DNA of 26,323 bases, from positions 156,071-182,393 of the forward strand of contig NW_003128371.1 of NCBI RefSeq assembly GCF_000003605.2. The letters are read 5' to 3'. Below, in pieces: positions 3,601-6,600 of this stretch. Made by a program: the position numbers and the translations under genes. This DNA comes from Saccoglossus kowalevskii (Eukaryota; Hemichordata; Enteropneusta; Harrimaniidae). Under the pieces are notes generated by a model. The model did not search any database, had not been told where the DNA came from, and saw only the letters and a program-made list of their open reading frames with translations. Numbering within the stretch: the stretch's first letter is position 1; each line of letters opens with the position of its first letter.

Positions 3601-6600
3601 TTCCTGGAGATTTACAAAATCTCAAATCTCCTATATCTTTGCTTTCGATGAGGTTGAAATGAATTCATTCAAGTTTATTGGTGTCTGAAATTTGTATTAC
3701 ATGATATCAAGACATTACCAGGAGTAAGTTTTATAGGTATATAGTACTGTAAAATGACTAATTTTCACTGGGTTTAAATTTTGCTGATTTACCATTTCAG
3801 GCATATTTAGAAGGTTTTGAATTCACGGTTTAATCATTTAGATAATGTGTTCTATGCTAAATTTTACATATTCACTGGGTTTTAATTTAGCGCATTTTCC
3901 AGTCAGGGAAATAATCAAATTAAAATCCAGTAATAATTAATCCTTTCACAGTATGCAATATTTTAGTAATTTATCCTGTTCAATTGCATAAATGGAAATG
4001 AACATTCTATCACTTTTTCTTTTACAGATTTACTCATTTTTTATTAGTATTCTAAGAAAAGTATGCTTGTTTTGCAATTTTGTATTCATCTCCCAATTCA
4101 TGTGACTTAATATTGAGATCCTCAATGCGTATCACACCAGTTACATTTCCTCATTTTATAAATCCATGCTGATATATTGGATGGCACGAAATGGCATGTA
4201 TCATGGTCCCATTACAATCAGTGTATGCATCAAGTACAAATCTATCCATGTACGACTAAGATCCGGCTCCAGAATGGTGAAAATGTGTGATTTTGATGCA
4301 TTTTTGGCTTTAAAATAGCTGCCATTTGGCCTTCTTGAATTGGACCAAGAAACAAATGCATGTGCATATGTCAGATATGATGTATGTGTGAAGTTTGAAC
4401 AAAATCCATCCATGCACAACTGAGATCTTGTTCTGGAATGGAAGAAATGTGTGATTTTGATACATTTTTGTTGTATGCTAGATTATTAAAAGATTAGTTA
4501 TTTTGACTATAGACACTTCTGCAATTTATACAAACACATGTGCGACCTCCATTGTAGGTAGCAAATATAAACAGCTGTTGAGTCAAGCCATTGAGCATAA
4601 ACCAAAAAAGATCACCTTATTTTCTCCCATCTTTTTTCTGAAAGATGTAAAATCCATAAATCCTTATAGTGATGGAATTTTGACTGGGTTGGTGAGGCAA
4701 ACTCTCCTCCGAACATCCAAAGCTGTCCACCACTCTGAGCTACCCCCACGGCCTGTTGGAATAATTCATGACAGATATATCAATGAAATCATTCAGATTA
4801 GGCGTATATGTATCATAATGGTAAGGGTAGAGAAAAATAATTATATACAAAGTCACATTTGGGTCAGTTTGATGACATATCAAATAAGTTTCTTTTGACC
4901 AACAGAAATGAGTCTGTGTGTCCTACCTAATGTGAGCATCTTAATGGTTACCCAGGGGTGAGTCTGTGTGTCCTACCTGATGTGAGCATCTTAATGGTTA
5001 CCCAGGGGTGAGTCTGTGTGTCCTACCCAATGTGAGCATCTTAATGGTTACCCAGGGGTGAGTCTGTGTGTCCTACCTGATGTGAGCATCTTAATGGTTA
5101 CCCAGGGGTGAGTCTGTGTGTCCTACCTGATGTAAGCATCATAATGGTGACCCAGGGGTGAGTCTGTGTGTCCTACCTGATGTGAGCATCTTAATGGTTA
5201 CCCAAAAGTGAGTCTGTGTGTCCTACCTGATGTGAGCATCTTAATGGTGACCCAGGGGTGAGTCTGTGTGTCCTACCTGATGTGAGCATCTTAATGGTTA
5301 CCCAGGGGTGAGTCTGTGTGTCCTACCTGATGTGAGCATCTTAATGGTGACCCAGGGGTGAGTCTGTGTGTCCTACCTGATGTGAGCATCTTAATGGTGA
5401 CCCAGGGGTGAGTCTGTGTGTCCTACCCGATGTAAGCATCTTAATGGTTACCCAGGAGTGAGTCTGTGTGTCCTACCTGATGTGAGCATCTTAATAGTGA
5501 CCCAGGGGTGAGTCTGTGTGTCCTACCCGATGTAAGCATCTTAATGGTTACCCAGGAGTGAGTCTGTGTGTCCTACCTGATGTGAGCATCTTAATGATGA
5601 CCTAGGGGTGAGTCTGTGTGTCTTACCTGATGTGAGCATCTTCATCGTCACTCAGGGGTGAATTAATCTGTGTGTCCTATATCTGATGTAAGCATCTTAA
5701 TGGTCACCCAGGGGTGAGTCTGTGTGTCCTACCTGATGTGAGCATCTTAATGGTGACCCAGCTAGGGGTGAGTCTGTGTGTCCTACCTGATGTGAGCATC
5801 TTAATGGTGACCCAGGGGTGAGTCTGTGTGTCCTACCTGATGTGAGCATCTTAATGGTGACCCAGGGGTGAGTCTGTGTGTCCTATCCAATGTGAGCATC
5901 TTAATGGTGACCCAGGGGTGAGTCTGTGTGTCCTACCTGATGTGAGCATCTTAATGGCAACCCAGGAGTAAGTCTGTGTGTCCTACCTGATGTGAGCATC
6001 TTAATGGCGACCCAGGGGTGAGTCTGTGTGTCCTACCTGATGTGAGCATCTTAATGGCGACCCAGGGGTGAGTCTGTGTGTCCTACCTGATGTGAGCATC
6101 TTAATGGCGACCCAGGGGTGAGTCTGTGTGTCCTACCTGATGTGAGCATCTTAATGGCGACCCAGGGGTGAGTCTGTGTGTCCTACCTGATGTGAGCATC
6201 TTAATGGTGACCCAGGGGTGAGTCTGTGTGTCCTACCTGATGTGAGCATCTTAATGGCAACCCAGGGGTGAGTCTGTGTGTCCTACTAGATGTTAGCATC
6301 TTAATAGTGACCCAGGGGTGAGTCTGTGTGTCCTACCTGATGTAAGCATCTTAAAGGTAAAAGGGGGATGCGTCTGTATGTCCACTTGATGTGAACATCT
6401 CAATGGTGAAAAACGGACAAGTCTGTGTGTCCTATCCGATGTGAGCATCTTAATGGTGACCCAGGGGTGAGTCTGTGTGTCCTACCTGATGTGAGCATCT
6501 TAATGGTTAAAAAGATATGTGCCTGTGTGTCCTACCTGATGTGAACATCTAGGAGGTGGAGCATTTGGAATTTTAACCAAGGTCCAACTGTTTTTCTTGA

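Follow-up and report, generated by a model that had tools for sequence, protein, structure and literature searches.

The analysed stretch of DNA (hereafter the window; 26,323 nucleotides) lies on contig C2041 of an assembly of 572 Mb in 4,830 contigs. On its minus strand we modelled six exons of a KLHDC4-like kelch gene, with a predicted open reading of 203 residues, a GT after each of exons 1–6 and an AG before exons 2–6 (Table 1). The name KLHDC4 was taken over from the earlier, sequence-only reading of this DNA and fits the known features of that protein. Two Pfam kelch stretches (residues 49–198 and 123–174) ran across residue 127, where exon 4 meets exon 5, and the segment encoded by exon 4 aligned with solved kelch proteins. 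We also found an open reading frame on the plus strand (15549–16100) whose start lay some 500 bases away from exon 1 of KLHDC4 and which ran in the opposite direction; it appears to resemble ZCCHC14, a neighbour of KLHDC4 on human 16q24, and the two are possibly conserved neighbours. Finally, the window contained a 157-bp tandem repeat of 2.2 copies (756–1096) in the intron that follows exon 5, and two diverged copies (4238–4306 and 4400–4470) of an element of about 70 bases that recurs in the genome, with at least 53 matches to a 4400–4900 query (those of the window itself counted), often paired about 312–325 bases apart.

Table 1. Modelled and predicted features of the KLHDC4-like gene, its intron 4 array, and similar arrays elsewhere in the assembly (window positions unless a contig is given).
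Feature	Position	Strand	Basis and remarks
Exon 1	14962..15072	-	Gene model; holds the coding start
Exon 2	13170..13261	-	Gene model
Exon 3	11985..12063	-	Gene model
Exon 4	6536..6634	-	Gene model; 99 bases, phase 0 at its end; final five codons (R C S H Q) inside the array
Genuine donor GT (CAG/GTAGGA), first of the series	6534..6535	-	Predicted from anchored sites and gene model
Intron 4	4753..6535	-	Gene model; 1,783 bases, 91.3% array
Minisatellite, 33 anchored sites (32 decoys and the real junction)	4909..6550	-	TRF, anchoring, unit alignment
In-frame TAA, intron bases 34–36	6500..6502	-	Gene model; reached when any decoy replaces the real donor
Exon 5	4616..4752	-	Gene model; acceptor ...ATTATTCCAACAG/GCC
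Exon 6, last modelled within the window	567..659	-	Gene model
C777 boundary array	G000:C777:20000-29000, exon end 4769-4791 of reverse complement	-	Pattern search, Pfam
C808 boundary array	G000:C808:73000-82900	-	Pattern search, Pfam
C224 candidate array	G000:C224:30000-39900, 4755-6422 of reverse complement	-	Pattern search

Most of intron 4 was made up of one minisatellite, which TRF recovered as a single array with a period of 50, 32.7 copies and 90% matches. The unit of 50 bp joined the final 15 bases of exon 4 to the 35 bases with which intron 4 starts. When sites were anchored on the exon 4 end (last exon base at position 6536 of the forward strand), we counted 33, the real junction included: CAG/GTAGGA was present in 23 of them, CAG/GTAAGA in one, and GT was kept in 30. 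Among the 32 decoys, 22 thus carried the 9-mer of the real donor and 29 a GT. The array covered 1,627 of the 1,783 intron bases. These figures reproduced those of the sequence-only reading, which had given about 33 copies, the same three motif counts and an intron filled to about 91%. It had also placed the start of the array at the real exon-intron junction; array and exon were indeed contiguous, but the array started 15 bases inside the exon and the junction fell within the first unit. Its description of one genuine donor followed by dozens of near-identical decoys holds in terms of sequence: in predicted pairing with the end of human U1, the real donor reached -10.8 kcal/mol and 27 of the 32 decoys -8.9 kcal/mol or better, while the remaining five lay between -2.5 and -4.2 kcal/mol. 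No N occurred within the array, though the true copy number may differ from that of the assembly, where other arrays (C166 among them) hold N gaps.

We then considered the origin of the unit. Alignment agreed with the claim that it contains the 15-base end of exon 4, 14 of 15 identical, together with the donor; the sole mismatch (TGT against TGC) leaves a Cys codon, and the exon part of the unit encodes RCSHQ, within the kelch segment. When up to three mismatches were allowed, a 32-base core of the unit had 30 matches in the whole 572 Mb, all of them within the KLHDC4 array, and none in the control search with the sequence read backward. The comparison supports exon 4 as the source of the unit, since conserved kelch coding sequence differs from the repeat by a single synonymous base, and the main grounds for the exon origin are that array and exon are contiguous and that the core is unique. 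The proposal that the gene's own 5' splice site gave rise to the minisatellite is therefore supported: the exon is a conserved kelch exon, its one difference is synonymous, and the core was found only here. We also considered a chance likeness of exon and array, which was ruled out by the single contiguous tandem series and by the core matches (30 versus 0).

Units differed from the consensus mainly at the two ends of the array, with 10 differences each in u00 and u02, 12 in u03 and 13 in u32, against 0–5 in all others save u17. The latter lies in the middle of the array and had 12 differences with indels, while u01, the second in line, had none. Adjacent units were hardly more alike than distant ones. 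Diverged edges around a homogenised core, as told of the lancelet globin gene BflGb6, were thus present, though u01 equals the consensus and u17 deviates from it, and the pattern resembles that expected of tandem turnover with a homogenised inner part, without a clean gradient. Between positions 5392 and 5591 two unit types alternated (u19 like u21, u20 like u22), which looks like the trace of a 100-bp dimer duplication.

The same build was found on two other exons of the genome. On C777, an exon with a C-type-lectin match (Pfam Lectin_C, E 2.3e-7) was followed by a 49-bp array of 27 sites including the real one, 25 of them with GT and 18 with the 9-mer of the real site. Splicing at its first decoy, which lies 54 bases further on, would lengthen the reading by 18 in-frame codons, including a second WIGLNDLE, ahead of any stop. 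On C808, an exon with a Pfam Glyco_hydro_15 match (E 6.3e-7), which we take to be phosphorylase-kinase-like, preceded a 55-bp array interrupted by an N gap, with 16 sites on its two sides together, every one of which kept GT. The real site read TGG/GTAAGT and 8 of the 15 decoys CAG/GTAAGT, nearer to the donor consensus by look. A further array, on C224 (51 bp, or 17 codons), began within an open frame preceded by an acceptor-like tract, and its unit seems largely exonic; neither a protein family nor a PDB entry matched this frame significantly (best Pfam E 0.099), and the array is therefore only a candidate. Comparison of exon and unit over the KLHDC4, C777 and C808 arrays gave five differences. 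Four were synonymous, one in KLHDC4 and three in the C777 and C808 arrays against the TRF consensus, and all four were transitions; 45 of 225 possible single changes and 27 of 75 possible transitions would be synonymous, in a comparison that left out split codons. The fifth, at position -2 of the C808 array, was not synonymous (G at the real site, A in 8 of 15 decoys).

Minisatellites over exon-intron boundaries have been described in lancelets as 'mirages', in Adh3 and the globin genes BflGb6 and BflGb9, and PGBD5 and troponin C have been compared with them (PMC3087553; PMC3902484). Length instability is reported for mirages, and RT-PCR suggests that splicing is undisturbed (PMC3087553; PMC3902484); cluster edges are said to escape homogenisation (PMC3087553). 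The KLHDC4 array likewise spans a predicted exon-intron boundary, at 6536, and shares with the mirages diverged cluster edges, an AG/GT kept in many but not all repeats (counts above), and a unit length within the 10–72 bp of the Adh3 units. Unlike the BflGb6 mirage, which has 6 and 3 units in two haplotypes, it has 33 sites in one haplotype. It also differs from the lancelet cases in gene and in phylum, the mitochondrial code of the host being of the ambulacrarian type.

The lancelet setting of the mirages did not apply here, judging by the ATA codons of COX1 (ATA = Ile). The only COX1 match of the assembly (C4830) had ATA at ten codons; at the nine later ones, five PDB chains, which we take to be from mammals, had I, V or L, apart from M in one chain at one place. 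The single AAA stood at a conserved Lys. ATA = Ile is common to echinoderms and hemichordates, while AAA is Asn in echinoderms and Lys in Saccoglossus, according to two reports (PMC2697986, PMC3121625). The animal is therefore an ambulacrarian, with a hemichordate favoured by one codon only, provided that C4830 comes from the same animal. A spiralian or a lancelet origin had also been weighed: among 12 homeobox loci read, out of 36 matches, some look like ambulacrarian Hox9/10 and Hox11/13, and a lancelet is ruled out by the mitochondrial code.

Outside lancelets, the human 6-16 gene (IFI6) reportedly carries a minisatellite from which one transcript obtains several donors, going by the title of Turri 1995, and this is said to have a 12-bp unit whose first few donors are used in frame. 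So described, it differs from the KLHDC4 array, where the unit is of 50 bp and out of frame and a stop lies ahead of the first decoy. Intron gain in which AGGT segments are duplicated in tandem (Rogers 1989; Hellsten 2011; both described in PMC4974935) has in common with the array the tandem AG/GT copies, each pair of which is a potential intron. The KLHDC4 segment differs in straddling an existing junction without acceptor features, and a new intron would here be only potential. Variable repeats that may form introns have also been noted at human exon-intron boundaries (PMC2812944). Save for that report, a literature search that covered few subscription journals, partly as excerpts, returned no boundary minisatellite beyond those of lancelets and human 6-16; a fish myostatin intron (PMC3045353) was considered and was not of this kind. 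Boundary minisatellites as a kind are already known from lancelets, then, and what appears to be new is the lineage and the number of decoys. The ambulacrarian finding carries the mirage beyond its one lineage and offers raw material for intron-gain models. How the spliceosome chooses among equal donors is an old question, mostly studied in built constructs; with 22 decoys that carry the 9-mer of the real donor, about 50 bases apart, the KLHDC4 series is a natural test of donor choice, and at least two further such series are present in the genome on other exons (C777 and C808).

We consider it likely, from the sequence, that the array is a mirage-type boundary minisatellite that arose by duplication across the exon/intron boundary and then grew, with the first donor in use and the copies tolerated as a by-product and not kept as a device. 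The sequence shows a tandem duplication that took in the final 15 bases of exon 4 and the adjoining 35 of intron 4; slippage or unequal exchange would then have produced the 32 extra copies, most of the inner ones being homogenised, to judge by the pattern of divergence. The copies sit downstream of the true exon end, so the reading frame would stay intact while the first donor is used. That donor is the one most likely chosen, and recognition of the entire 99-base exon as one unit may be the reason. The TAA of intron 4 lies ahead of the first decoy, so every decoy yields the same early stop, and messages spliced at a decoy would presumably undergo nonsense-mediated decay. A tolerated by-product is suggested by this common stop, by the presumed use of the first donor, and by donors that are no better conserved: over 31 copies, the columns of the donor 9-mer had a mean of 1.89 differing copies against 1.46 elsewhere and ranked 37 of 50 rotations of the unit. 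That two further exons of the genome are built alike points to a general process. We counted against a by-product the exact 9-mer in 22 of the 32 decoys and the edge pattern, which is not clean. Invariant columns were also more frequent among those derived from the exon (9 of 15) than among those derived from the intron (9 of 35; Fisher p 0.028, post hoc and with copies that are not independent), which could be read as constraint.

The same decoys might instead serve regulated non-productive splicing, with a share of transcripts using them, all giving the same NMD-prone message, and the copy number tuning KLHDC4 output. The common stop and the strong U1 pairing of most decoys would suit such a role, but the donor columns are kept no better than the remainder of the unit and a stop is to be expected anyway, as the three frames of intron 4 contain 33, 32 and 27 of them. 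Moreover, GTRAGT-type donor arrays were no commoner in the genome than in the backward-read control: three triple-donor patterns gave 1,847, 23 and 201 places versus 1,858, 221 and 303, counts that are inflated by a few large arrays and come from patterns blind to GTAGGA-type arrays such as that of KLHDC4. Without an excess over the control, nothing here shows selection for donors, and we regard this explanation as unlikely. The U1 pairing would equally suit a platform of U1 sites, themselves uncut, that protects the intron against premature cleavage and polyadenylation, or else slows its splicing. This is very unlikely in our view, given that intron 4 holds no A[AT]TAAA signal needing a shield and that the donors are not conserved beyond the rest of the unit. 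In a fold of three units (150 bases) we found no special RNA structure (MFE -30.7 kcal/mol, z +1.29 against shuffles).

Recursive use of the array, with each CAG/GT serving as acceptor and then as donor, would let the intron leave in steps of 50 bases without a trace in the mRNA, since a unit used both ways restores the exact junction. Its AG/GT logic is that of the Rogers intron-gain model. Introns have indeed arisen from tandem AGGT repeats (PMC4974935). Recursive splicing was nevertheless rejected for want of a pyrimidine tract ahead of AG/GT: the 32 decoys had 6–9 pyrimidines in 16 (28 of them had 8), close to the background average of 7.9 ahead of AGs throughout the window, against 9–13 at the five real acceptors. 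By eye, an AAG also stands shortly ahead of each CAG, downstream of the sole well-spaced branch-like CTCAC, and we hold such a ladder to be highly improbable. A similarly slight probability attaches to an assembly artefact in which copies were multiplied or misplaced; N gaps do occur within other arrays, but the units differ from one another, the series is free of N, the exon 5 flank was found once at full length, and two further exons show the same build. Donor-like-motif minisatellites are frequent in the genome, and one could imagine a dispersed satellite or mobile repeat that inserted at the junction and whose likeness to the exon is accidental. That is scarcely credible, as the likeness runs across the junction with a single, synonymous exonic difference and the core has no other copy in the assembly at up to three mismatches, a limit beyond which more diverged copies may exist.

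Beyond the tolerated boundary minisatellite proposed for KLHDC4, exon-intron boundaries might be favoured birthplaces of minisatellites throughout the invertebrate deuterostomes and not in lancelets alone, through a process tied to the junction, and a number of donors that drifts from one individual to another may tune output; this is a speculative extension, to which we give only a small chance. If true, the process could be tied, for example, to splicing or to RNA-DNA hybrids at donors, and the donor ladders would be natural tests of splice-site choice, each with a single true donor at the head of tens of copies identical to it. For exons at the start of donor arrays we surveyed 11 contigs, 8 among the places listed of the 1,847 and 3 from the 23 of the second pattern. 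The donor-side edge was readable in eight (C128, C224, C777, C808, C850, C998, C1685 and C2921) and unreadable in three, owing to an N gap (C166), a contig start (C1089) and an array that fills the locus (C1192). Two of the eight readable arrays (C777 and C808) started at an exon with a Pfam match above the cut-off. Besides these and C224, in the other five the open frame running to the first donor had 32 residues at most, a length at which a short exon could be missed. At single donor-like sites, an open frame of at least 80 residues was present in 9 of 57, a set that includes real exons and is thus no clean null. Finally, the 26-bp array on C998 (G000:C998:889500-894500, minus strand), rich in AGGTRAGT, started directly after a pyrimidine-rich tract ending in CAG/GTGAGT, which has the appearance of a recursive splice site.
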